A stretch of 64,000 nt of DNA from Spartobacteria bacterium LR76 (GTDB lineage: Bacteria; Verrucomicrobiota; Verrucomicrobiia; Chthoniobacterales; Terrimicrobiaceae): assembly GCA_003054655.1 (NCBI GenBank), contig QAYZ01000016.1:744001-808000 (forward strand). Direction: 5' to 3'. Positions 1-12,605 of this stretch are shown piece by piece (position 1 is the stretch's first letter; each line of letters opens with the position of its first letter). Both the position numbers and the translations under genes were made by a program. Under the pieces are notes generated by a model. The model was not told where the DNA came from and did not search any database. It saw only the letters and a list, made by a program, of their open reading frames with translations.

Positions 1-1799
1 GTGAGGAACTGGGCCTGGATGATGCCCTGCAGGAGATACTGCGGGCTGAAGTAGCCGCCGTTCCCGTAGGTAAAGTGATTCTGGTTATTGTCGAACTGCT
101 CGTACGACAGGGCGAAGCCGATGGTGAAGTACTCGTAGCCCGGCATGTCGAGCAGGTGGGCAAAGGCTGCCGTACCGTACAGGTGGGTATTGTCCTCGAC
201 GTTGGTGCCATCGATCGTGCCGTAACCGCCCTTGAGGTAGATCGTATTGTCTTCGCCGACGGAGTGGAAGAACTGGAGGTTGCCGCCTGTCTCCTGCACC
301 CGGCCCCATTGGTTGCCGGTGTAGGGATCGACGATACCGACCCAGGAGAGCATGCTTTCCTTGATGGATTTGGAGTAAATCTCGCCCTGCACGTAGCCGC
401 TGTTGCTGCGCCAGATGAGGCCGGCGCTGCCGGTCGGACGGCTCTGGAGGGGGCCGTTGATCGGCGTGGTGCCGAGTTGGATGTACCAGCTAATCCAATC
501 CTGATACTCTAGGCGCACGTTGAACTCCCACAAGTCGTCCTCGCTCGTGGTGGGCTGGTAGTTGTAAGGAGTGTACACCGCAGGCGGGGTGCCGACCTGG
601 GCGCCATTGGGCAGATCGCCGCTGTCGAGACTCAGGTGGGTCAACGCGGCGCTGAGCATGAACTTGTTGGCCGGGAAAACCTGCGCCTGAATGACCGGGA
701 AGGTGATGACCTGCAACTGGCCCTCGCCCGCGGAACCCGACTTCGTGCGATACCCGAAGCCTGCGGCGACGCTGGGCTTGTTCAGGTTTTGGAGGACGGG
801 ATAGACCTTGGCTCCGCCGGAGTCGGCAGCGGCGCGGAAGAGGTTGGCCGACATGTAGCTCTTCGCGTCATACGTGTAGTACATGTCGCGAAGGGGACCG
901 CCCGAGCCGGAGAGCGAGTCGAGCTTGTCGTAGGCTTTGGTCTTGGAATACGCGGCGTAGGCTCCCTGAGCAGCGACACGATCGGGCGAGTTGCGGTAGA
1001 GCTTCTGGAAGAGCTCAGCCGACTGCTCGTATTGCTTGGTGTAGTAGAGATCCCACGCGACGATGATCTGCTCGTTGCGGCTCAGTGGGCGCATGGCACC
1101 GGCTTTGTTGAAATACTGGAGGCTGTCGTCGTACTGCTTGTTTTCGTAGGCCTCAGTGCCTCGCCGGGAGTAGATGTCGCCCAGCAGCGTCTTCATCTTT
1201 GGGTAGCTGTTGACGCGGAAATTGGCGATGGCTTCCGCCGAGGAAAGGTCCCCTTCCCGGAACTTGGAGAGGGCCAGGCCGTAGGCCGCCTCGCCGGAGT
1301 TGGAGTTCCACTCCAGAGCCTGGTTGAACCACATGCCGGCGGACGAATACTCGTTGCGATTGAAGTACGCCCAGCCGAGTTGCGTCGCCGTGGCGGAACT
1401 CCTGGTGGTACTCGCCTGGTTGGCGAGCTGGCTGAGCTGCGCCGTGGACAGCGTCTGCGGCATCGGTGAGGAACGCCTCACCGGGGTCGGAGTCGGCTGG
1501 GCCTTGGTCACCGGTTTCGCCACCGGGATGGCCTGGGGGATGATGTCCACCGTCTCGCCTGTCGCCTGCACGGCTGGTGCCGGCAGGTCGCTGGGAATAA
1601 ACATCGTCGGTGTCGCCGCCGCGGCGGGGGTCGGAGCCGGCGTCGGAGTGGGCGCTCCCGGCCTCACGGGAACGAAAAGGGACGGAGTGCTCGTCGGAGC
1701 CGGAGCACTGAGATCCGGCGGCGGTTGCTCACCAAAAAACGGTTGTGCGTCCGTCTTCTCGAATGCGAGAACGGAAAGGCCCAATGCAACCAGGCGCAT
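1..1799 (-). CDS. bcsC: Cellulose synthase operon protein C (BcsC), C-terminus cut by window edge
   Basis: Outer-membrane export protein of the cellulose secretion system: periplasmic TPR superhelix plus a beta-barrel. The minus-strand frame is open from an ATG at 1799 to the window edge, about 599 residues. It begins with a weak signal-like stretch and a long Pro/Ala/Thr linker. TPR-like helices follow (motifs such as QLGWAYFNRNEYSSA and EAYENKQYDDSLQYFNKAG). The last ~250 visible residues are rich in aromatic and Gly strands typical of the BcsC C-terminal barrel domain. It is much shorter than E. coli BcsC (about 1,150 residues), so it probably has fewer TPRs. It lies 31 bp after bcsZ in the same direction and is the last visible gene of the operon. 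The missing C-terminus prevents a full length comparison. Confidence 0.85.
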   Translation of the reverse strand, partial: MRLVALGLSVLAFEKTDAQPFFGEQPPPDLSAPAPTSTPSLFVPVRPGAPTPTPAPTPAAAATPTMFIPSDLPAPAVQATGETVDIIPQAIPVAKPVTKAQPTPTPVRRSSPMPQTLSTAQLSQLANQASTTRSSATATQLGWAYFNRNEYSSAGMWFNQALEWNSNSGEAAYGLALSKFREGDLSSAEAIANFRVNSYPKMKTLLGDIYSRRGTEAYENKQYDDSLQYFNKAGAMRPLSRNEQIIVAWDLYYTKQYEQSAELFQKLYRNSPDRVAAQGAYAAYSKTKAYDKLDSLSGSGGPLRDMYYTYDAKSYMSANLFRAAADSGGAKVYPVLQNLNKPSVAAGFGYRTKSGSAGEGQLQVITFPVIQAQVFPANKFMLSAALTHLSLDSGDLPNGAQVGTPPAVYTPYNYQPTTSEDDLWEFNVRLEYQDWISWYIQLGTTPINGPLQSRPTGSAGLIWRSNSGYVQGEIYSKSIKESMLSWVGIVDPYTGNQWGRVQETGGNLQFFHSVGEDNTIYLKGGYGTIDGTNVEDNTHLYGTAAFAHLLDMPGYEYFTIGFALSYEQFDNNQNHFTYGNGGYFSPQYLLQGIIQAQFL

Positions 1800-1830
1800 G
1801 GCGCCTGAGGCAATGACTCCGGTGTTATAT

Positions 1831-2952
1831 CTATTTGGTCGCAAAGGACTCACGGACTGCGATCTTGGTCAGGATGGAAAGGCTGGCAGAGAAGTACGGC
1901 TCGTCCTTGGTTACCGCAGGAAGCGCACGAACTGTCAAGCTCGCTTTGGACGCGCAGGCGATGGTGTAGGCGGCTATTGCCTTCATCCCTGGCAGGGCGG
2001 GATAAGGTCCAAAAGAATCGTCCTTCAGATTGACTGTGGCGGGCATGTGCTCCGGGAGCAGAGGCTTCCAGAAATCGGCAAATGGCGCAAGAAGCGGAGA
2101 GTCTTTTTGCGCCCAGGCGATGTGGAGGGGGACGCGGACGGCATTGTATCCAAAATCCGGCGGGAACTTGGGTGAGATCTGGAGTTCGCTCCCTGTGGCA
2201 AAGAGCCAGTCTGGAGTCAGCTTCCACTTTCCGAAGGCACCCTTCTCGATGAGCGACCGACCGTCGGCGGAGACCTTGCCCCAGGGCGTGCCGGGGAGTG
2301 CGGCGGCGATCTCATCCAGCGCGGGAAAGATGTAGTATGAAGGATTCAGCGTCGCGCCGTCCTCGGTCCAGAAGCCGTCGGTGCCGGGCAGCAGGATGGT
2401 TTTGCCGTCGTATTCCTTGAGATCGAGGCGGGCGAGATCGACGAGGATCTGGGCGGCGGCTTGCTGGTATTTGTAGTCATTCCAGACCTTGGAGGCGCGG
2501 ATGAGCGCCCAGGCCACGAGGATGTCACCGTCGCTGGCGTTGTTGGTATCCGTGACAGCGCCGCTGTGGTCAGTGCCAGGCAGCGGAGTGCCATTTTCAT
2601 CCTCGATCGGGCTGGCCCCGGGCTTCCACTGCCAGGCCAGGAGCTTGTCTGCGGGACGGACCTGGAGATTCTGTTGCGTCCAGTTCCAGATGCGGTCGAA
2701 GGCTGCGCGATCCTCGTAGGCCACGGCAATGACGAGTCCATACCCCTGCCCTTCGCTGTGGCTGACATTCTCATTGCCGGTGTCGATGACGCGCCCGCCG
2801 GTGCTGATGAAGTTGCGCTGGTAGATCTCCCAGTCGGCTTTGCGCAAGCCGTAGGGATTGAGAAAATCGAGCACGAAGGCGGTCAGCTTAAAGCCGAGCA
2901 CGAGCGCGAAAATCGCACCAAAGCTGAGAATGACCGCCCATTTTGCTTTCAT
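1831..2952 (-). CDS. bcsZ: Endo-1,4-beta-glucanase, GH8 (BcsZ)
   Basis: Periplasmic family 8 glycoside hydrolase that trims cellulose during export. The 373-residue product has an N-terminal hydrophobic segment (about residues 6-30) acting as signal or anchor. GH8 signatures follow: SEGQGYGLVIAVAYEDR (general-acid Glu region), ASDGDILVAWALIRA (catalytic Asp region), NPSYYIFPAL, and a late FGYNAVRVPLHIAW. Its ATG shares one base with the bcsB stop codon, showing tight translational coupling. Length and gene order match bcsA-B-Z-C operons of proteobacteria. I see no truncation or missing catalytic motif. Confidence 0.92.
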   Translation of the reverse strand: MKAKWAVILSFGAIFALVLGFKLTAFVLDFLNPYGLRKADWEIYQRNFISTGGRVIDTGNENVSHSEGQGYGLVIAVAYEDRAAFDRIWNWTQQNLQVRPADKLLAWQWKPGASPIEDENGTPLPGTDHSGAVTDTNNASDGDILVAWALIRASKVWNDYKYQQAAAQILVDLARLDLKEYDGKTILLPGTDGFWTEDGATLNPSYYIFPALDEIAAALPGTPWGKVSADGRSLIEKGAFGKWKLTPDWLFATGSELQISPKFPPDFGYNAVRVPLHIAWAQKDSPLLAPFADFWKPLLPEHMPATVNLKDDSFGPYPALPGMKAIAAYTIACASKASLTVRALPAVTKDEPYFSASLSILTKIAVRESFATK

Positions 2953-5327
2953 CAGGCATCGGACTCATTTTCTTCCGCACCGAGCTTCTCACCGCGGCGG
3001 CGCAGCACGGTGCGCACGCCCAGGGCGATCAAGAGGATGAGGATGATGAGGATCGGAGCAAAGAGCCACGGACTCTGCTGCATGTTGGTGCCGACGCGGG
3101 TGACCACAGAGGTCGACTTGTAGATGAAGTCGGGTCCCACCTTGGCCACGGCGAGTGAATCCGGGCGGGAGTTCCAGACCGCGAGGTCGCCCGCGAGATT
3201 GTCCCAAACGCTGCGATCCTGCAGGGCATTCATGCCGGAAAGCAGGTTGGCGGCACTGCCTGCGGTCACGATGGTGACCGGGTAGCCGACGGCGGTGGGC
3301 GACTCAAACTGTACGGCGACCGTGTCGTCGATCATGTCCGCCGCCATGGTCATCTCGGCGGTCTTTGGGGGTTCCGGTTCCGCTTTCTCCGAGGGCGTGC
3401 CACGGATCTTTTCCATGAACTCCTCGATCGGGGAGGTGGCGAGGCGCTCCGGCTTGGGGCTGACGCTGACGAGGTAGCGCATCTTGCCCACCTGCAACGG
3501 CGAGACGGGGGCTCGCGCCACGATATCCTCGGGGATCTGGTCGCGGGCACCGACGACGAGGAGGTTTTTGCGGATGTTGCGGCCCGGGGGCTTGAAGCCG
3601 ACCTCGAGGCGGTGCAGGAGAGCGCCGGAGATCTGGGACATCTTGCCGAGCAGCGTCCAGGCGGCGGTGACGGTTTCCATGTCGCGACCGGCGACGAATA
3701 GCGCCGTCTCCGCGCCATCTGGCGAACCGGAGTATGGGAAGGCCGTCTGGGAGAAAAGCCCCAGACTCGGCAGGCGGCACTTGCGCAGGGCGCGCGGAAA
3801 GACAAAGACGGAATCGTCGTAGAGGGTGAACACGAGATTCTCTTCCTGGATCATCTGGCACTTGCCCGTCACGAGCGGCACCATCACGGGAGTGAGGTCC
3901 ACGACGTTGCGCCCCGGCTGGAACGAGATCATCGGGAGGTACAGTCGATGGTCGGAGTGCATCGAGCCGTTCAGATCACGTAGACGTATGGCCTTCTGGA
4001 ACTGGCCGTTGACGAAGACATTGAACACCGAGTCGTCCCGAAAAGCGGCGCCATAGGTGAAATGCAGACGGAGTTCGGCGTTGGCACCGTCATCCTTGGA
4101 GATGTCGCCGGGCATGTAGATCGGGACGGAATATCCTCCGGCATTCCAGCCGCGAATCGTCTGCTGCTTGTAGCCGAGTTGACGGAAGCTGTAGATGCCG
4201 GGCATCTGCAAAGGAGCATTGCGGATGTAGGCAGGCTCCTGCGGCAGGGTGAGCTGATCGACGATGGCGTACTGGGAGTCGGGCAGCGGGTAGTTCACGA
4301 GGCCAAAGGCCAGCGCCGTCTGGCTGACCTCACGCTCGTCGCGGCCGCTGATGATGATCATGCAGTGCGCGGGATCGCCCGGCAGGGCCTTGATCGCGAG
4401 GAAGCTGCCATTGACTGATCCGATCTCGGTCGCGGTGAGATAGCCGGAAAGCTCCGTCATCGTGCCGATCACGATATTGTCCATGCCGGCCCGCAGGGCG
4501 TTGGCCGTCATGACGCGGAAGGGCTGGTAGTTCAGCGCGAGCGCGACGCCCTGGGTCACGATGCCGCCCCAGGCGAGCTGGAGGTCGGTCATCTGGCTGG
4601 AGCCGGGGAAGCAGACGTTGAACTGATACGGGTTCCAGAGCTTCTCATCCACCCACCAGCGGAGGTAGGAAAGCCGCTGCGGGACATCGCGCCACTCGGC
4701 CACGGCGGAGAGGTACGAGGTGTCGGGATTGATCTCGGTGAAAAGCTCGGGCGCGCCGGGGTCTTCGCACTGGTTCGTGTAGTGCTGGGCGACGATGAAC
4801 TGGAGGCGGTTGAATCCGGTCTTGAGGAGTTCCAGAGGGATGCCCATCTCGACGGAATTGAAGGGCCGGTTGCGGTCGAGGCGGTACTGGGCGACGATGA
4901 CGTCATTGACCACGACGCGGAGGACGGAACGCTCGGTGAGCAGAGCGATGGAGTTGGTGAAATCGAGGTTCAGCGAGCAGGACTTGAACTTCATGCGGGC
5001 GCTGACCGGGACGAATATGGTGTAGATGCTCGAGGCGTTGCGAAGCATCAGGGGGGAATCGAGAGCGATGAGCTTGCGAATGGGCAGGCGCATCGTTTCT
5101 TCGCGGGGCGTCGTGCGCTCGGGCAGAGGGAGCCTGGCTGCTCCCGCCGGGGCTGTGCGCTGAAAAACCGACGCTCCCGGCGTCGGCAGGGCCAGCGCGG
5201 CCGGAGCCACCGAGGGGGCGGCGACGGCTTGCTGCTGAGCGGATATCGGCGCGATCGAGCTGGCCAGAATGGCCAGGGCGAGGAGCAGGCTCTGCGGCAG
5301 GTGGAGGTGGCGCATCATATCTTTCAT
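2952..5327 (-). CDS. bcsB: Cellulose synthase regulatory subunit BcsB
   Basis: Periplasmic, membrane-anchored partner of BcsA that guides the nascent glucan. I start it at the ATG at 5327 (MKDMMRHLHLPQS), 7 bp after the bcsA stop, because this gives a clean signal peptide (LLLALAILASSIAPISA). An upstream in-frame ATG at 5396 would overlap bcsA. The product is about 791 residues. Alternating carbohydrate-binding and flavodoxin-like domains are suggested by the length and by motifs such as the cysteine-containing QHYTNQCEDPGAPELF. A single C-terminal transmembrane helix (WLFAPILIILILLIALGV) followed by an Arg-rich tail matches the BcsB anchor that packs on BcsA. Confidence 0.92.
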   Translation of the reverse strand: MKDMMRHLHLPQSLLLALAILASSIAPISAQQQAVAAPSVAPAALALPTPGASVFQRTAPAGAARLPLPERTTPREETMRLPIRKLIALDSPLMLRNASSIYTIFVPVSARMKFKSCSLNLDFTNSIALLTERSVLRVVVNDVIVAQYRLDRNRPFNSVEMGIPLELLKTGFNRLQFIVAQHYTNQCEDPGAPELFTEINPDTSYLSAVAEWRDVPQRLSYLRWWVDEKLWNPYQFNVCFPGSSQMTDLQLAWGGIVTQGVALALNYQPFRVMTANALRAGMDNIVIGTMTELSGYLTATEIGSVNGSFLAIKALPGDPAHCMIIISGRDEREVSQTALAFGLVNYPLPDSQYAIVDQLTLPQEPAYIRNAPLQMPGIYSFRQLGYKQQTIRGWNAGGYSVPIYMPGDISKDDGANAELRLHFTYGAAFRDDSVFNVFVNGQFQKAIRLRDLNGSMHSDHRLYLPMISFQPGRNVVDLTPVMVPLVTGKCQMIQEENLVFTLYDDSVFVFPRALRKCRLPSLGLFSQTAFPYSGSPDGAETALFVAGRDMETVTAAWTLLGKMSQISGALLHRLEVGFKPPGRNIRKNLLVVGARDQIPEDIVARAPVSPLQVGKMRYLVSVSPKPERLATSPIEEFMEKIRGTPSEKAEPEPPKTAEMTMAADMIDDTVAVQFESPTAVGYPVTIVTAGSAANLLSGMNALQDRSVWDNLAGDLAVWNSRPDSLAVAKVGPDFIYKSTSVVTRVGTNMQQSPWLFAPILIILILLIALGVRTVLRRRGEKLGAEENESDA

Positions 5328-5334
5328 AGGGCAG

Positions 5335-7602
5335 CTAGTTCGAAGATCGGCCTCCCACGTGATAAGCGGGCGCGGGTTGGCGGACATTGGATTCAATCAT
5401 GAGGTGAGCGAAGTGCTCGATCGAGAAACGGATGCCGCAGCTCATGAGGAAGAAGGCGCTGCGCGTGACGCCGAGCCGCTTCTCGCGATTGCTCTGGAAG
5501 CTGATCCAGCGGTCGCTGCTGCCATTGACGAGGAGGACCTTGCGCTTAAGCTCCTCCAGGTCCTTGTGCTGAAACTGGACGCCGAGATTGGTCAGCGAAC
5601 CCTCGCTGCGGGCGTTGCGCACGACGAAATGGAACGGCTCGCCGGAGAGGGCATTGTTGCCCTGGACGACGAAGTCGGCCTTGGTATCCGTGCGGAAGAT
5701 GGTTTCGTAGGCCGCGTCGATCTGGATGCTGGCACCGCTGATCGAGAGATCGGTGATGGTTGCGACGTACGACTTGTCCCCCACCCGCACCCGGGCGGGA
5801 ATGTTGGCAGGCATGCGGGGCGAGGCGCGGCGCTGCCTTCGCTCGAGCAGCGCGCCCATGGCGGCGAGCAGGATGAAGACGTTGAATGCCGCCCAGCACA
5901 TCGTGATGGTCGTCGGGAATCGGTCGCCGACATTGCCCCACACCAGGCGCCCGGCACCGAAGCCGATGGCGACGAGGTTGAGGAGAAGGAAGAGGTAAAA
6001 CGGCCTGGCCAGCGGACTGATGAAATCCTGAGTGAGCGTCTCGCCCTTGGCTGTCACGTTGAAGGTCGGCGCTTTTGGATTCATCAGCACCTTGAGCATG
6101 GCCGGGAAGGTGTAGACCGACTGCATGAGCTCGTAGAGCTCGGAGACGAACGACCATCGCACATGGCCGAAGAGGAAGTCGGAGACCATGAACACGGCAA
6201 ACAGATGCGGTAGACAGTATGCGGCGAAGTCGACGAAGTTTGCGTTGTAAATCTTCAGGCCGAAGAAAAGGAAGCACATCGGCGCGAGCAGGAAGACGAG
6301 CCGTGCGTAGGCGAAGAACCAGAAGAAGCCGCTGCTGAAATAGCACAGGCGCTGAGGGAGCGTGAGTCCCGGCATGATGAGCGGATTCTTCAGGAGGAAG
6401 ATCTGGAGCATGCCCTGCGCCCAGCGGACGCGCTGGCCGATGAAGCCGCCGAGTGTCTCGGGCTGGAGGCCCGAGATCATGGGCTTGGCGATGTAGGCGC
6501 TGTTGTACCCGCGGGCGTGCATGGTGAGCGCGGTCTCGGCGTCCTCGGTGATGGTGTCACCGCTGATGCCGCCGATCTCCATGATGTACTTGCGGCGCAG
6601 GACGGCGGCGGAACCGCAGAAGAAGGCGGCATTCCAGTAATCCAGCCCCCGCTGGATGACGCGGTAAAACATCTCGTTCTCACTCGGCATCTGGGTGAAG
6701 GTCTGGAGATTCTTCTCGATCGGGTCGGGGTTGATGAAGAAGTGCGGCGTCTGGACGAGAAACATCTTCGGGTCCTTGATGAACCACCCGACCGTGTTTT
6801 GCAGAAAGTCCGCCGTCGGTGCATGATCCGCATCGAGGATCATGATGAGGTCTCCGTCGGTCTGCTGGAGGGCGCTGTTGATGTTGCCCGCCTTGGCGTG
6901 GACGTTCTTCTCACGGGTGAGATACCTGGCACCCACCTTGGCGCAGAGGGCCTGCAGCTCGACGCGGCGCTTCTTCGCCTTTTCCGACAGGACGGGATCG
7001 GGCGAGTTGCAGCGCTGATCGGTGCCGCCATCGTCCAGCAGGAAGACCTGGAAGCGATCCTTGGGGTAATCCATCTGGAGCGCGGAAAGCAGCGTCACCT
7101 CGAGCAGTTCCGAGTCCTCGTTGTACGACGGGATCATCACGTCGACGCTTGGGAGGCTTGTCTCGGTCTCCTTGGACAGCGGGATCGGCCTGCGGTCCAG
7201 CGGGTCGATATTGACGAAGATACTCAGGATATAGACGACGAATCCGTAGAGCTCGGCGAGATACAGGATGATAGCGCAGGAGAAGCTGAGCAGATCGTTG
7301 AAGCCCAGCGTGGTAAACGTACGCCAATAGAAGTAGTCGACCGAGAGAAATGCCGCGAGGATGAGGTAGAGGACGCGGATCGTCTCGATGTTGTTGAAGC
7401 GCTTGAGGGCGAGGAAGACGACGATGGCCGACACGGCCACCGCGATCTGGGTCTTCGTCGTGATGCTCGCTGCACAGGCGATGATCCCGGCGACGAAGAG
7501 AGCCGCCAGCACGAGCTGGGTGACCGGGCTCTTTTCGATGCGGGCGAGGATCTTCTGTCCGAGATCCTCCGGGCCGCTCTGTTGGGATTTCTTTTTCGCC
7601 AT
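5335..7602 (-). CDS. bcsA: Cellulose synthase catalytic subunit BcsA (GT2 plus PilZ)
   Basis: Inner-membrane family 2 glycosyltransferase that polymerises UDP-glucose into cellulose and threads it through the membrane. The 755 residues contain the complete D,D,D,QxxRW signature: LLDDGG near 190, LDADH near 258, TEDAETA near 352 and QRVRWAQG near 390. Several transmembrane helices lie before and after the catalytic domain. The C-terminal PilZ domain (from about residue 590) keeps the c-di-GMP motif: RxxxR in RRASPR, then DLSISGA. Activity is therefore probably c-di-GMP dependent. It sits 27 bp downstream of a coiled-coil membrane protein and immediately upstream of bcsB. Confidence 0.96.
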   Translation of the reverse strand: MAKKKSQQSGPEDLGQKILARIEKSPVTQLVLAALFVAGIIACAASITTKTQIAVAVSAIVVFLALKRFNNIETIRVLYLILAAFLSVDYFYWRTFTTLGFNDLLSFSCAIILYLAELYGFVVYILSIFVNIDPLDRRPIPLSKETETSLPSVDVMIPSYNEDSELLEVTLLSALQMDYPKDRFQVFLLDDGGTDQRCNSPDPVLSEKAKKRRVELQALCAKVGARYLTREKNVHAKAGNINSALQQTDGDLIMILDADHAPTADFLQNTVGWFIKDPKMFLVQTPHFFINPDPIEKNLQTFTQMPSENEMFYRVIQRGLDYWNAAFFCGSAAVLRRKYIMEIGGISGDTITEDAETALTMHARGYNSAYIAKPMISGLQPETLGGFIGQRVRWAQGMLQIFLLKNPLIMPGLTLPQRLCYFSSGFFWFFAYARLVFLLAPMCFLFFGLKIYNANFVDFAAYCLPHLFAVFMVSDFLFGHVRWSFVSELYELMQSVYTFPAMLKVLMNPKAPTFNVTAKGETLTQDFISPLARPFYLFLLLNLVAIGFGAGRLVWGNVGDRFPTTITMCWAAFNVFILLAAMGALLERRQRRASPRMPANIPARVRVGDKSYVATITDLSISGASIQIDAAYETIFRTDTKADFVVQGNNALSGEPFHFVVRNARSEGSLTNLGVQFQHKDLEELKRKVLLVNGSSDRWISFQSNREKRLGVTRSAFFLMSCGIRFSIEHFAHLMIESNVRQPAPAYHVGGRSSN

Positions 7603-7629: not shown

Positions 7630-8145
7630 CTACCAGCCGAGCAGCCGTGACGCGATCGCGCCGAACACGGCAAAGAAAATGCACAGGGTGATCACCGCCC
7701 CGCGGGTAATGGGCTTGATCTGCGAGCCGACCTTGTCCACGCGGATGACGAGCGCGTCGGTCTCCTTCTTCACCACGTCGAGCTTCTTGGTGCAGTAGTC
7801 GATGCCCTCGTGGTAAGCCTCGATCTGCTTGACGAACTTGTCGAAGTCGATGAGCTCAAGCTTCTGCTGCATCTCCTGGGCCTGATAGGACATGCGCTCG
7901 ATCACGGGTAGCAGCGCGGTCTTCATCGCCTCGGCCAGCGCTTCGCTGGAGACGTCCACATGGGCGGAGACGGGAGCTGCCGACGCCGGGGCGCGGTGCT
8001 CGCCGGGTTCAGCGGGAGCTGAACCTCTCATGGGGCCGATGAATTCAATGAGCTCCAACAGGGCGATCGCGGGATCACCATCCTGGATGTTGTAGCGTTT
8101 CTGCCAGTCGAGGATTTTGGCGCGGATTTCCGGGTTTTCTATCAT
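7630..8145 (-). CDS. Coiled-coil protein with C-terminal membrane anchor in the bcs operon
   Basis: Unrecognised 171-residue protein. It has a short N-terminal helical region (ENPEIRAKILDWQKRYNI), a Pro/Ala-rich linker (about 45-65), a long predicted coiled coil (about 70-140, rich in Glu/Lys/Gln), and one C-terminal transmembrane helix (GAVITLCIFFAVFGAIAS). That topology leaves the coiled coil in the cytoplasm. Its ATG overlaps the stop codon of the preceding ParA-like gene (ATGA), and bcsA follows after 27 bp. The position suggests an adaptor tethering the ParA-like ATPases to the cellulose synthase, playing a role analogous to small Bcs accessory proteins. That role is inference only. Confidence 0.8.
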   Translation of the reverse strand: MIENPEIRAKILDWQKRYNIQDGDPAIALLELIEFIGPMRGSAPAEPGEHRAPASAAPVSAHVDVSSEALAEAMKTALLPVIERMSYQAQEMQQKLELIDFDKFVKQIEAYHEGIDYCTKKLDVVKKETDALVIRVDKVGSQIKPITRGAVITLCIFFAVFGAIASRLLGW

Positions 8146-8873
8146 GGCAAAAGGATTTTCTTGGCGTTGTCGAGCTGCTCGAACCAGTTTCGGGAAAAGT
8201 CAATAAGCCGCTGCCGGTCCAGGAGGTTCACCTCCGGGCTTTCCATCGCCTTGTCGATGGTCATCGAGCGGCCCTGGAGGATCTCGGCAAGGTGCGGCTG
8301 GAGCTTGGGCATCTCGACCTCGATGGCTCCATTGGCGAGCAGGGTCTGGCGGGCCTGGCTGTTGTCGTAGATGCGCATGGTGTTCGACATCTTCTGGTTC
8401 TTGACGACCAGCCAATCCACAAGGTTGCCGGCGCGTTTTGCCGCCTCACCCGCCTGATGCACGGTATCCTTGTCGGACTCAATGATGAGCACGAGGGTGA
8501 CGGACAGGCCGAGTTGCTGCTTCACATTGAGCAGGTCGGTCTCCTCCATCCAGTCGAGAAAGATGCTCTGGTGCGCGCCGACGCCATCGACGATGATGAG
8601 GTCGCTGCTGTCGAAGGATTCGACGATCTGGTCGAGATTCTCGCTATGGCGGATGTCGAGGAACTTTGCGCTCGGGTAGAAACGAGTCAGCGTACTGTTG
8701 CTGTAGTCGGGGTCGAACGCGGAGAAGTTCACCCCATGCAGGGCGAGCCACTCGACGAGACGTACGCAGAAGAAGGATTTGCCCACCCCGCCCTTGTCAA
8801 TGGCGACCATTACCAAGCGTTTGGTATGGTTGCGCGTGGGAATCCTGGATAGCGTCCGGGAACCGCTCATCAA
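8142..8873 (-). CDS. ParA/MinD-like ATPase, BcsQ-type, copy 2
   Basis: P-loop ATPase of the ParA/MinD class (243 residues) with deviant Walker A KGGVGKS near residue 29 and a Walker-B-like LIIVDGVGA. In proteobacterial bcs operons a ParA-like protein (BcsQ) helps place or assemble the cellulose machine, and the operon position suggests the same here. It is clearly paralogous to the upstream gene: both share a VDWLVVKN motif, an IYDNSxARQxLL motif and DKDTVxQAGE. Its start overlaps the upstream stop (ATGA), so the two are translationally coupled. I do not assign a bcsQ symbol because similarity to E. coli BcsQ cannot be measured here. Confidence 0.85.
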   Translation of the reverse strand: MMSGSRTLSRIPTRNHTKRLVMVAIDKGGVGKSFFCVRLVEWLALHGVNFSAFDPDYSNSTLTRFYPSAKFLDIRHSENLDQIVESFDSSDLIIVDGVGAHQSIFLDWMEETDLLNVKQQLGLSVTLVLIIESDKDTVHQAGEAAKRAGNLVDWLVVKNQKMSNTMRIYDNSQARQTLLANGAIEVEMPKLQPHLAEILQGRSMTIDKAMESPEVNLLDRQRLIDFSRNWFEQLDNAKKILLP

Positions 8874-9661
8874 ACTTCCTCAGGGGCCACGCGGGGGCGC
8901 GCAGACGTTGCCGGCTTGCCCGCCTTGTGGACAGGCGCAGTCATGGCCAGCCGGGTAGGCACCAGGAGAGCCCGGGCAGACTCCAACTGCTCGAAGAATC
9001 TCTTTTGAAATGTCCGCAACCGCTGCCTCTCGAGGAAGGGCAGCGACTCATCCAGCACGAGGGAGGAAAGTCCCCGGCTGGTCTTTTGGATCGTGGCCAG
9101 CAAGCTCCAGGGCACGCGCTCCATCGTGATCTCCATCGCGCCGAGGCGCAGGAGCTCCTGGCGCGCCTTGCTGTTGTCGTAAATCTCCGAGGTCGAGCAG
9201 GTCTTGTGATTTTTCACCACGAGCCAGTCCACCTGGTCGCCGAGACGCTTCGCCAGCTCCCCGGCCTGGAAGACCGTGTCCTTGTCCTCCTCGATCATGA
9301 GGATCATCGTGACGCGATGCTCGGCAAAGCGGTCCTTGTTCTGGACAAAGGTCTCGTCGAGGAAATCCGGGTAATACCCCTTCAAGGCTCCCAGGGCATC
9401 CCATCCCAGCACCTCGCTGTCATCGAGCACCTCGCTCAGCTCGCGCACCGCCTCATCCGGGTTATCGAGGGGCAAAAATCGCGAGTCCGGCAGGAAGCGG
9501 GTCAGCGTGCCATTATAGAGATCCGAATCAAAAAACGCGCAGTCCTGCTCGATCTCCGCATACCAGTCTGCGAGATTCACAAGGAAGAAAGTACGTCCCA
9601 CGCCTCCCTTGCAGGTTGCGCTGACGATGATCCGGCGAATGATTTGGGCGCTAGCGGGCAT
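8870..9661 (-). CDS. ParA/MinD-like ATPase, BcsQ-type, copy 1 with Arg in the P-loop
   Basis: First gene of the operon (263 residues). The P-loop reads KGGVGRT near residue 19: the signature lysine of the deviant Walker A is kept, but the canonical lysine before Ser/Thr is replaced by Arg. The rest matches the downstream paralogue (DKDTVFQAGE, VDWLVVKNHK, IYDNSKARQELL), with a longer C-terminal basic tail. The lysine change suggests altered or lost nucleotide hydrolysis, perhaps a regulatory partner in a heterodimer with copy 2. About 217 bp separate it from the next upstream gene, so the operon promoter should lie in 9662-9878. Confidence 0.85.
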   Translation of the reverse strand: MPASAQIIRRIIVSATCKGGVGRTFFLVNLADWYAEIEQDCAFFDSDLYNGTLTRFLPDSRFLPLDNPDEAVRELSEVLDDSEVLGWDALGALKGYYPDFLDETFVQNKDRFAEHRVTMILMIEEDKDTVFQAGELAKRLGDQVDWLVVKNHKTCSTSEIYDNSKARQELLRLGAMEITMERVPWSLLATIQKTSRGLSSLVLDESLPFLERQRLRTFQKRFFEQLESARALLVPTRLAMTAPVHKAGKPATSARPRVAPEEV

Positions 9662-9878: not shown

Positions 9879-10580
9879 CTAGTTTCCCGAGGGAGAGACT
9901 TTGAGGAGATTCTGTGCTGTTTGCTTTTGGACAGAGAAACGCCCTCCCGCGACAAGCGCATTGCGGGAATCGAGAACGACCGATTTGACCGTGCCGGAAA
10001 CCGCCTGGGGGTTGGAGATGACGGGCGCGTCGAGCGAGCCATCGGCATTGAGCCGGGCCACGCTGCGGCGCGGCTGGCCCAGCACGAGGCTGAAGCTCCC
10101 GCCGAGGACGATCTTGCCATCAGGTTGGACAGACAGCGCAAAGACCGGGCCATCCGTCCCCTGGCTGGAAGTGCCGTTGGTCGTCCCAAAGGTCTGATCC
10201 ACCGTGCCATCGGGCTTGTAGCGGGCGATGTTGTAGGTTCCGAAAGAGTTTGCCTGAGTAAAGGTGCCGCCGACGATCACGCTGCCATCCGCCTGGAGAG
10301 CGAGGGCGAAAATCTGGCCGTTCACTCCTGCCTCGTAGGTATTGGCAAATGTCGTATCGAGGGTGCCATCGGGGTTCAGGCGTGCGAAACTGCCCCGGGG
10401 CTGGCCGTTCACGGAGTTAAAGAGACCACCGATGATGACCTTGCCATCGGGCTGGATGGCGATGGCATTCACCTCGCCCTGTACGCCCGGCTCCGAGGTG
10501 AACGCCGAGCGATTTTCCCCACTCGATTGGGCAAAAACAGATGAACTCAAGGCCAGGAGGAGCACGAGCAACAGGGGCAT
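9879..10580 (-). CDS. Secreted delta-60 repeat protein
   Basis: A 233-residue protein beginning at the ATG at 10580, chosen because it gives a good signal peptide (MPLLLVLLLALSSSVFAQ). An upstream in-frame start at 10661 would put a charged tail before it. The mature part is four delta-60 repeats, for example AIQPDGKVIIGGLF, ALQADGSVIVGGTF and SVQPDGKIVLGGSF, each followed by a variant of ARLNPDGTLDTTF. The repeats form short beta-strand units likely to build a propeller or solenoid. The protein is short for this family and ends shortly after the fourth repeat, so it may be only a module. Exported; function unknown. Confidence 0.8.
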   Translation of the reverse strand: MPLLLVLLLALSSSVFAQSSGENRSAFTSEPGVQGEVNAIAIQPDGKVIIGGLFNSVNGQPRGSFARLNPDGTLDTTFANTYEAGVNGQIFALALQADGSVIVGGTFTQANSFGTYNIARYKPDGTVDQTFGTTNGTSSQGTDGPVFALSVQPDGKIVLGGSFSLVLGQPRRSVARLNADGSLDAPVISNPQAVSGTVKSVVLDSRNALVAGGRFSVQKQTAQNLLKVSPSGN

Positions 10581-10665
10581 AATGCATAGTCCAATCCCGA
10601 AATCGTACAAAATCAAGCTCTCACGCTTGATTCCCCGCCCGAAATGCAGGATGCTTCGCACCCTC

Positions 10666-10739
10666 GCACCGGTAGCTCAATCGGATAGAGCGTCGGCCTC
10701 CGGAGCCGAAGGTTGTGGGTTCGACCCCCGCCCGGTGCA
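10666..10739 (+). tRNA. tRNA-Arg (anticodon CCG)
   Basis: A 74-nt cloverleaf. The acceptor arms GCACCGG and CCGGTGC pair fully and are followed by discriminator A. The D arm is GCTC/GAGC, the anticodon arm is TCGGC-CTCCGGA-GCCGA giving anticodon CCG, and the T arm is GTGGG-TTCGACC-CCCGC. No CCA is encoded. A 9-bp hairpin follows at 10751-10772. Confidence 0.97.
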
Positions 10740-11156: not shown

Positions 11157-12605
11157 ATGCAACATCTACACCTCAAGAAATCCGCAACCCTGTTCGTGAC
11201 ACTTGCGATCATGCCGCTGATCGGACGGGCGCAATCGACCTCCACCTGGAACACGACCACGGGCAACTGGAGTGTCGGCACCAACTGGTCACCGACGGGC
11301 GCGCCAGTCTCCAATGCCGGGAACGCGCTGACCTTTGGCGGGGCCGCGAGCTACACGGCGACGAATAACATCAGCTCCGACTTCCAACTGAACAGCCTGA
11401 GCCTCACGAACACGGCGGGTCGCGTGACCATCGCTGGCTCCAGCCTGAATTTCATTTCCTCCGGGGCCACGACGCCCACGATCACCCACACCACGACGGG
11501 GACCGAGGCGACGACGATTTCCGCCAATGTCGTGCTGACGAATGACCTCAGCATCACGGCGACCGGATCGAGCAGTTTTGACTGGCTGACCATCACGGGC
11601 GCGGTGAGCGGAGCGGGCAAACTCTCGATCTCGACCGGAGGCGGCAACTACTTCGTCATCCTCGCCAACACCAACAGCTATTCCGGCGGCACGTCGGTGA
11701 CGGGAGGCTTGAAGACCAGCGCCGCCGGGGCTCTGGGCAGCGGCGCGATCACGCTCGGCGGCAATGGCAAGTGGATCATCAATACGACGGCGCAATCGTA
11801 CTCGAACGCCATCACGCTCAATGGCGCATTCGCGATCGACGCCAACGTGGCAACGACCCTGGGCGGCAACATCGCACTCGGCTCCAGCCAGCTCACCTTG
11901 CGCGGCAGCGCGGGATCGGCCACCTCCACCGCCAGCGGCGTGATCTCGGGAGCAGGCAATATCCTTAAGGGAGATGCCGGGAGTACGTGGATACTCAGTG
12001 GCAACAACACCTACACCGGCACCACGGGAGTGAATGCCGGGACGCTGCTCATCAATGGCAATCAGGCCGCATCCACTGGCGCTGTGTCGGTGGCGGCCTC
12101 GGCCACACTCGGCGGCGACGGGACCATTGGCGGCGCGGTCACGGTGGCCAACTCCGGCATTCTCTCGCCGGGCGCAGCCAGCGGCGCGACGGGCACGCTC
12201 TCGCTCAACAATAAAAACCTCACGCTTTCCGGGGCTGACACCAAGATCCAGATGGAAATCGCGGGCACGTCGGCAGGCGCGTTTGACCGGATCGCGGGAG
12301 TGTCGACCCTCTCGCTGAACGGCGACCTGACCCTCACGCTCACCGGCACATACACGACGGCAAACTGGGACGTCCTCGACTTCAGCGCCAAGTCGGGCAA
12401 CTTCGACACCGTCACGCTGGCTGGGAGCTACGCCGGATCGCTCAGCCGTATCGGCGACACCTGGACGGGCAATGTCGGCGGACAGGACTGGACCTTTGAA
12501 CAGACGACCGGCGTCCTCAGCGTCGTGCCGGAACCCGGTACGACCGCGCTGGTCATCGCAGGGCTTGGTTTCACGCTGCTCCTGCGCCGTCGTCAACGCG
12601 CCTGA
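11157..12605 (+). CDS. Autotransporter-type beta-strand repeat protein with PEP-CTERM tail
   Basis: Secreted 482-residue protein: signal peptide (about residues 1-24, ending GRAQ), then beta-strand repeats. These include a clear autotransporter-associated repeat (WILSGNNTYTGTTGVNAG) near residue 285. It ends in a PEP-CTERM sorting signal (VPEPGTTALVIAGLGF, then RRRQR). Such tails direct anchoring by an exosortase system. The M55 peptidase gene starts 17 bp after its stop, so it heads an operon of three genes behind an operator-bearing promoter. The long antisense frame over it is a GC-driven shadow. Confidence 0.85.
   Translation: MQHLHLKKSATLFVTLAIMPLIGRAQSTSTWNTTTGNWSVGTNWSPTGAPVSNAGNALTFGGAASYTATNNISSDFQLNSLSLTNTAGRVTIAGSSLNFISSGATTPTITHTTTGTEATTISANVVLTNDLSITATGSSSFDWLTITGAVSGAGKLSISTGGGNYFVILANTNSYSGGTSVTGGLKTSAAGALGSGAITLGGNGKWIINTTAQSYSNAITLNGAFAIDANVATTLGGNIALGSSQLTLRGSAGSATSTASGVISGAGNILKGDAGSTWILSGNNTYTGTTGVNAGTLLINGNQAASTGAVSVAASATLGGDGTIGGAVTVANSGILSPGAASGATGTLSLNNKNLTLSGADTKIQMEIAGTSAGAFDRIAGVSTLSLNGDLTLTLTGTYTTANWDVLDFSAKSGNFDTVTLAGSYAGSLSRIGDTWTGNVGGQDWTFEQTTGVLSVVPEPGTTALVIAGLGFTLLLRRRQRA

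Follow-up and report, generated by a model that had tools for sequence, protein, structure and literature searches.

In the 64,000-nucleotide window analyzed here (Spartobacteria bacterium LR76, contig QAYZ01000016.1, positions 744,001 to 808,000), a cellulose synthase (bcs) operon is headed by two adjacent genes for ParA-type ATPases, here called ParA1 and ParA2, and by a gene for a membrane-anchored coiled-coil (CC) protein. All three genes are located on the minus strand and are followed by bcsA, bcsB, bcsZ, and bcsC, in that order. The head of this operon is probably a ParA/partner cassette of the conjugation or mobilisation type that was captured by the cellulose operon and whose ATPase was duplicated, and it would now serve as a membrane-tethered ATP-sandwich scaffold for the cellulose synthase BcsA. 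The capture is supported, at the level of sequence, by the homology of both ATPases to the conjugal protein TraL, the homology that links the N-terminal module of CC with the mobilisation-cassette partner gene, the sister relationship of ParA1 and ParA2, the retained gene order, and strong purifying selection.

Arrangement and conservation of the operon head

The operon is a bcs operon: BcsA, its PilZ domain, and BcsB were recognized by family scan (BcsA scores 891 bits against TIGR03030, for which the cut-off is 699), whereas bcsZ and bcsC were assigned from their position and from comparison alone. ParA1 and ParA2 are 40% identical, and a search of the window's own genome with ParA1, at an expectation value (E) of up to 10, returned these two genes only. 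The ParA1 and ParA2 genes are joined by a TGATG overlap and the ParA2 and CC genes by an ATGA overlap, so that the ATGA coupling stated in the original prediction for the two paralogues is found at the second junction and not at the first; the gap from CC to bcsA is 27 bases.

A ParA1 search of 58 genomes, the window's own included, gave a match at E 1e-5 in 13, and the order ParA1–ParA2–CC–bcsA was read in nine genomes in addition to the window's own. A search of the order to which the organism belongs (213 genomes) added one more (G471), bringing the total to 11 loci from two families of that order; because the same gene order is found in 11 genomes, the arrangement is more than chance. The operon head of the original prediction, two paralogues and a membrane-anchored coiled coil, is conserved in all 11 pair-bearing loci, each of which also has the CC gene. 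The genes bcsB, bcsZ, and bcsC are labelled behind bcsA in eight of these loci, while the contigs of L029 and L133 end at bcsA, and bcsZ is unlabelled in L031. Within the order, bcsA exceeds the cut-off in 13 genomes, with the pair present in 10; the contig of G006 begins just before bcsA, where the 3' end of CC is still readable, and in G055 bcsA reaches the contig end. G471, whose bcsA is cut by the contig end, falls outside these 13.

In a set of 387 genomes, bcsA exceeds the cut-off in 6; the four of these that fall outside the order all read bcsA–B–Z–C without ParA or CC in 18–19 kb; five genomes with bcsA-like genes under the cut-off and a second match in G193 were left out of this reading. 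A scan of named GTDB genomes, which detects close relatives only, yielded nine loci, of which eight encode close relatives (named as Verrucomicrobia, Verrucomicrobiaceae, Chthoniobacterales, or Terrimicrobiaceae); the ninth is a weak match in Planctomycetota.

Kinship of the ATPases with conjugal TraL

Both ATPases resemble TraL over nearly their full length. ParA2 matches the TraL profile with an E of 5.1e-9 (residues 19–238 against positions 4–240 of 241), and in profile comparisons (hhalign) with nine TraL-type plasmid sequences, ParA2 reached a probability of 98.9% (E 1.4e-17) and ParA1 one of 98.3% (E 1.1e-14), the alignments spanning 212–220 columns and reaching the C-terminal R-Q-R-L region. 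When ParA2 was compared with plasmids by tblastn, 362 records matched, and TraL is annotated in 21 of the 25 matches listed. As both score below the curated TraL cut-off, ParA1 and ParA2 are relatives of TraL and not TraL themselves.

AlphaFold models ParA1 with a ParA/MinD fold (mean predicted local distance difference test score, pLDDT, of 82.8, with a C-terminal tail below 50), and the best fold match of this protein is the ParA of ParF/TP228 (Z 16.6, root-mean-square deviation 2.7–2.9 over 192–196 residues), with other families of the ParA/MinD fold scoring only slightly lower. Sequence searches of solved structures gave three hits for ParA2, all of them weak and to MipZ (best E 0.0014), and no hit for ParA1 up to an E of 0.1.

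The coiled-coil partner and its counterparts in mobilisation cassettes

Mobilisation cassettes of Verrucomicrobiota comprise a TraL-like ParA, a tail-anchored CC, a VirD4-like coupling protein, and a divergent MobF-type relaxase, and a small gene often precedes ParA. All four genes were found in 12 loci (L036, L037, L097, L134–L137, L139–L141, L143, and L144); L135 and L136 have a truncated relaxase, and L138 is without one on its short contig. L098–L102 carry the ParA, the coupling protein, and the relaxase, and their partner gene is more diverged or unlabelled. Family scans found coupling-protein domains in both loci scanned (L036 and L098) and a TrwC/MobF relaxase in the one scanned for it (L036); the other mobilisation loci were labelled by their likeness to L036. 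In 72,556 plasmid records, tblastn at E up to 1 gave no match to the CC of L036 or to the small gene upstream in that locus.

The CC of the bcs operon matches three mobilisation CCs, picked from many by likeness, over residues 1–36 (hhalign probability 97.1%, E 5.9e-11), a score that none of 150 column permutations reached. With the diverged partners of L098, L100, and L102 added, the resulting six-row set gave 88.4% and an E of 2.8e-6 over 24 columns. A whole-genome search with the CC profile matched the cassette CC of G120 (E 3.6e-8), which is one of the three. Homology between the N-terminal module of CC and the mobilisation partner gene is therefore supported by sequence comparison. The mobilisation CC in turn matches TraM weakly, with an E of 0.0025, again unequalled in 150 permutations, and a DP motif near residue 25 together with a C-terminal anchor occurs in 11 of 11 CCs, 8 of 8 TraM proteins, and 13 of 13 mobilisation CCs, the last chosen by likeness to CC.

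The 19-residue hydropathy maximum of CC begins 19–22 residues before the C-terminal end in all 11 loci, and Arg17 in the N-terminal segment is invariant in the 10 compared. The AlphaFold model of CC is of low confidence (mean pLDDT 58.8, predicted template modelling score 0.22), and predicts helices at residues 5–18 and 25–36 and a C-terminal helix at 145–170.

Probable origin by capture and the points that weigh against it

In a tree of 57 sequences, ParA1 and ParA2 together form a single clade (support 99/97), and ParA1 forms its own (100/98); the tree leaves out M_L106 and carries a long-branch warning, which includes the ParA1 of L035. As ParA1 and ParA2 are one clade, their sisterhood fits a single capture and then one tandem duplication that preceded the split between the two families.

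Several observations weigh against the reading as a captured cassette that serves BcsA, or limit how far it reaches. The scores of ParA2 (35.9 bits) and ParA1 (20.6 bits) are far below the curated TraL cut-off (NF010461, 360), which makes the kinship with TraL remote, and ParA2 also passes the Pfam cut-offs for MipZ and CbiA. The clade of ParA2 alone is modestly supported (86/67). A single clade of mobilisation ParAs was not rejected (p-AU, approximately unbiased test, 0.067) when 20 of the 24 rows labelled as mobilisation ParAs were tested, L103, L104, L105, and L142 being excluded because no relaxase stands beside them; the direction of capture therefore rests on the conjugal outgroup. Compared directly, the bcs CC and TraM give an E of 0.052, with 8 of 150 permutations scoring as well, and the best local match in a script comparison sits in the anchor; CC has no match to the TraM profile NF010470 at E up to 1. 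As the direct comparison is not significant, the link between CC and TraM runs through the mobilisation CC. The comparison that favors TraL over BcsQ, given below, used nine TraL sequences and one BcsQ sequence. In plasmid R388, where StbB is likened to the pair, StbC is described as an orphan, and transfer is reported to have been undiminished whether stbC alone or the entire stb operon was deleted (PMC3098194). Lastly, the genome G038 (locus L131) has neither the pair nor CC in the 1.5 kb upstream of bcsA.

The bcsA–B–Z–C locus of G038 encodes a BcsA that scores lower than the others. The lower score, together with the missing cassette, suggests that it represents a separate bcs lineage. The absence of CC from related bcs operons had been named as a result that would count against the idea; among the loci that carry the pair this did not occur, and in G038 CC is absent together with the pair.

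Comparison with known systems

The Verrucomicrobiota mobilisation cassette resembles the bcs head in its homologous ParA and CC and in the position of the CC gene directly upstream of the gene for the machine's own enzyme. It differs in having a single ParA, in lacking the RPR[VI]xPxxV tail, and in being joined to a relaxase and a coupling protein instead of bcs genes. The TraL–TraM pair of RP4 (IncP) is likewise a ParA-like ATPase with an overlapping downstream small gene, whose product has an N-terminal ...DDP and a C-terminal anchor; the CC gene overlaps the ParA2 gene as RP4 traM overlaps traL. In RP4 and R388, in contrast, the neighbor is a relaxase and not bcsA, whereas in the bcs operon the ATPase is duplicated and no TraK/StbA-type gene was recognized. 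The likeness to StbB of R388 (StbABC) rests on its published description, according to which conjugation in the presence of StbA depends on the ParA-like StbB, plasmid foci near the cell poles require it too, and StbB homologues are usually found in three-gene operons of several plasmid groups (PMC3098194).

The cellulose system of E. coli offers an analogy. There, a BcsQ dimer in its ATP-bound state, together with BcsR, rests against the PilZ domain of BcsA, and BcsE and the membrane polypeptide BcsF keep it in place (PMC11470070); the proposed complex would resemble it in setting a MinD/ParA-fold dimer at BcsA with a single-pass membrane polypeptide as its tether. The two systems differ in that BcsQ belongs to another subfamily, and in that BcsR, BcsE, and BcsF were not recognized here, no search with their own profiles having been made; likewise, no BcsR or BcsP gene was recognized at the locus, with no profile run for either.

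Two cyanobacterial conjugative plasmids (L108:3953-5531 and L109:3890-5458) encode a TraL-like ParA and, immediately after it, another P-loop protein whose motif is changed to GDARVGKS, possibly another pair of an active and an altered ATPase. They are unlike the bcs pair in that the second copy matches no TraL model and no bcs genes are present.

Active-site changes in ParA1

The original prediction had drawn attention to an arginine in place of the P-loop lysine of the first copy (KGGVGRT), and had proposed from it a heterodimer of an active and an inactive ATPase that would position the synthase. The substitution is real in the window, where the codon is CGT. Across the loci, arginine occupies this position in 3 of 11 ParA1 proteins, all of one genus (here g1) and all with the codon CGT; the other eight have the normal lysine, the result named in advance as refuting, and KGGVGRT was accordingly rejected as a general feature of the first copy. 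ParA2 keeps the P-loop lysine in all 11 loci, so that 19 of the 22 ATPases have it. Because 8 of 11 ParA1 proteins retain this lysine, the active/inactive pair does not hold as a general principle, and it may apply to g1, in which arginine is found in all three species and is accompanied by a second change: the glycine after the Walker-B aspartate is alanine (DG to DA) in the same three ParA1 proteins and glycine in the other 19 sequences. The remaining catalytic residues are retained, with the signature lysine, the second switch-I aspartate, and the Walker-B aspartate present in 22 of 22, and the first switch-I aspartate in 21, the exception being glutamate.

In g1, the ratio of non-synonymous to synonymous substitution rates (dN/dS), over three species pairs for each gene, is 0.020–0.025 for ParA1, 0.031–0.046 for ParA2, and 0.042–0.074 for BcsA; two of the ParA1 dS values exceed 1 and are rough. 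At such a ratio, the altered ParA1 is under strong constraint, and decay of ParA1 into a pseudogene was rejected.

The substitution may also be neutral, with ParA1 and ParA2 forming separate homodimers and arginine still supporting ATP binding, which is a less likely reading. KGGVGR variants form a named family (NF047398), against which ParA1 scores 21.2 bits, below the cut-off of 90. The P-loop of E. coli BcsQ reads RGGVGTT and thus lacks the lysine as g1 ParA1 does, and, since BcsQ is described as ATP-bound in its complex (PMC11470070), loss of this lysine need not abolish ATP binding. The glycine-to-alanine change next to the Walker-B aspartate, fixed in precisely the three ParA1 proteins that have the arginine, argues against neutrality.

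The C-terminal tail of ParA1

All 11 ParA1 proteins end in RPR[VI]xPxxV after a variable linker, and the motif is missing from the 10 ParA2 ends and the 25 other ParA ends compared. In the window's own genome, a DNA pattern written for the motif has a single occurrence. The peptide is a likely docking motif; alignments of the BcsA and BcsB ends in search of its partner gave nothing clear.

Proposed mechanism and competing explanations

In the scaffold reading that we favor, the ATPases would form an ATP-bound sandwich dimer, either hetero- or homodimeric, which would bind CC at its N-terminal helical module. Held at the inner membrane by the tail anchor of CC, this dimer would recruit, buttress, or stabilize BcsA there, as BcsRQ does with BcsE and BcsF in E. 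coli. ParA1 may use its fixed C-terminal peptide as a docking ligand for BcsA or CC, and in g1, ParA1 may have turned into a weak or non-hydrolysing half that still gives its signature lysine to the ATP site of ParA2. A ParA1–ParA2 heterodimer is likely, if unproven, because the ATPases are duplicated and always adjacent. A bolder and rather unlikely extension would make the cassette a portable machine-docking module captured by cellulose synthase, with an obligate heterodimer in which g1 ParA1 is a pseudo-ATPase that completes the ATP site of ParA2 in trans with its signature lysine and docks BcsA via the C-terminal peptide RPRVxPEEV.

If the capture and scaffold reading is correct, a ParA-type subunit has been recruited by cellulose secretion at least twice, as BcsQ in proteobacteria and as a conjugation-type pair together with its membrane partner in Chthoniobacterales, and the two could be compared as to whether the ATPase serves the synthase as scaffold, assembly factor, or positioner. 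The little-studied TraL–TraM/StbBC type of cassette would then also work apart from DNA transfer. If the docking-module extension is correct, one module serves a coupling protein in conjugation and cellulose synthase here; and if g1 ParA1 is a pseudo-ATPase, the loss of the P-loop lysine in it and in E. coli BcsQ would be a case of convergence and would suggest that the ATPases of cellulose secretion are nucleotide-locked scaffolds and not cycling motors. No link between a TraL-type cassette and cellulose was described in the titles or abstract openings of the matches listed from a search of mostly non-subscription literature.

A positioning motor is an unlikely alternative to a scaffold. ParA1 and ParA2 would cycle between the nucleoid or membrane and CC in the manner of ParA or McdA, spreading synthases or directing them to the poles, and CC would act as a ParB-like stimulator through its N-terminal basic residue; an invariant Arg17 is present in that segment of CC. 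The checked catalytic residues are kept in 8 of 11 ParA1 and 11 of 11 ParA2 proteins, save the one switch-I glutamate, the best fold matches of ParA1 are to the ParF/TP228 ParA, and the polar foci that need StbB in R388 (PMC3098194) point in the same direction. Arginine at the P-loop lysine position in the strongly constrained ParA1 of one genus would be odd for a motor, however, and the partner CC is itself anchored in the membrane.

The original prediction had taken the pair for BcsQ paralogues. As fast-evolving BcsQ duplicates, their likeness to TraL would reflect merely the common ParA fold, and they do stand upstream of bcsA (with CC between) as bcsQ does in E. coli. This is now a very improbable explanation and largely refuted. 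Neither ATPase matches the BcsQ profile TIGR03371 (cut-off 157.85 bits) at E up to 1, and no genome of 17 exceeds that cut-off, the bcs pair being absent among the weaker matches listed. The alignment with E. coli BcsQ (13.5%) covers only 29 columns, confined to the P-loop, against the 212–220 columns with TraL, and profile comparison groups both proteins with conjugal TraL; membership in BcsQ was rejected on the missing TIGR03371 match and the P-loop-only alignment. Mobilisation cassettes, moreover, share CC with the bcs operon. The absence of BcsQ chains among the 50 ParA1 fold matches listed in each of two listings has no bearing either way. That the pair continues to work for a DNA-transfer system in trans, its place next to bcsA being accidental, is the least probable explanation of all, since the cassette precedes bcsA in all 11 loci, which come from two families, and no TrwC/MobF match was obtained in 7 of the 10 cassette genomes (other relaxase classes were not searched), even though a single, partial match of MobF type occurs in the window's own genome on a contig other than that of the cassette (G000 contig C9:348647-349342, E 4.5e-29).

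Features of the window

Table 1. Genes and motifs of the bcs operon, in window coordinates
Feature	Position	Strand	Remarks
ParA1	8870..9661	-	TraL-like deviant Walker-A ATPase, 263 residues, P-loop KGGVGRT
ParA1 P-loop	9590..9610	-	Signature Lys kept, P-loop Lys to Arg (codon CGT)
ParA1 C-terminal tail RPRVAPEEV	8873..8899	-	Short conserved motif after variable linker
ParA2	8142..8870	-	TraL-like ATPase, 242 residues from ATG, P-loop KGGVGKS at 8775-8795
CC	7630..8145	-	Tail-anchored coiled-coil partner, 171 residues, TraM-like architecture
CC N-terminal module	8038..8133	-	Two predicted helices around W-Q-x-R...D-x-D-P
CC C-terminal transmembrane helix (tail anchor)	7636..7713	-	Hydropathy and model helix
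bcsA, cellulose synthase with PilZ domain	5335..7602	-	Family scans
bcsB	2952..5396	-	PF03170, 266 bits
bcsZ-type gene	1831..2952	-	Named by position and likeness across loci only
bcsC-like tetratricopeptide repeat (TPR) gene, cut by window edge	3..1853	-	Named by position and cross-locus likeness only

The nearest upstream gene on the same strand as the operon (9879-10661) encodes 260 residues and reads as a secreted-type protein. A transfer RNA gene is located at 10666-10739 on the plus strand, between this open reading frame and that at 11157-12605, and it was the sole match at the gathering threshold in an Rfam scan of the window. The open reading frame at 11157-12605 (482 residues) encodes what looks by its motif like a PEP-CTERM, autotransporter-repeat-like surface protein.

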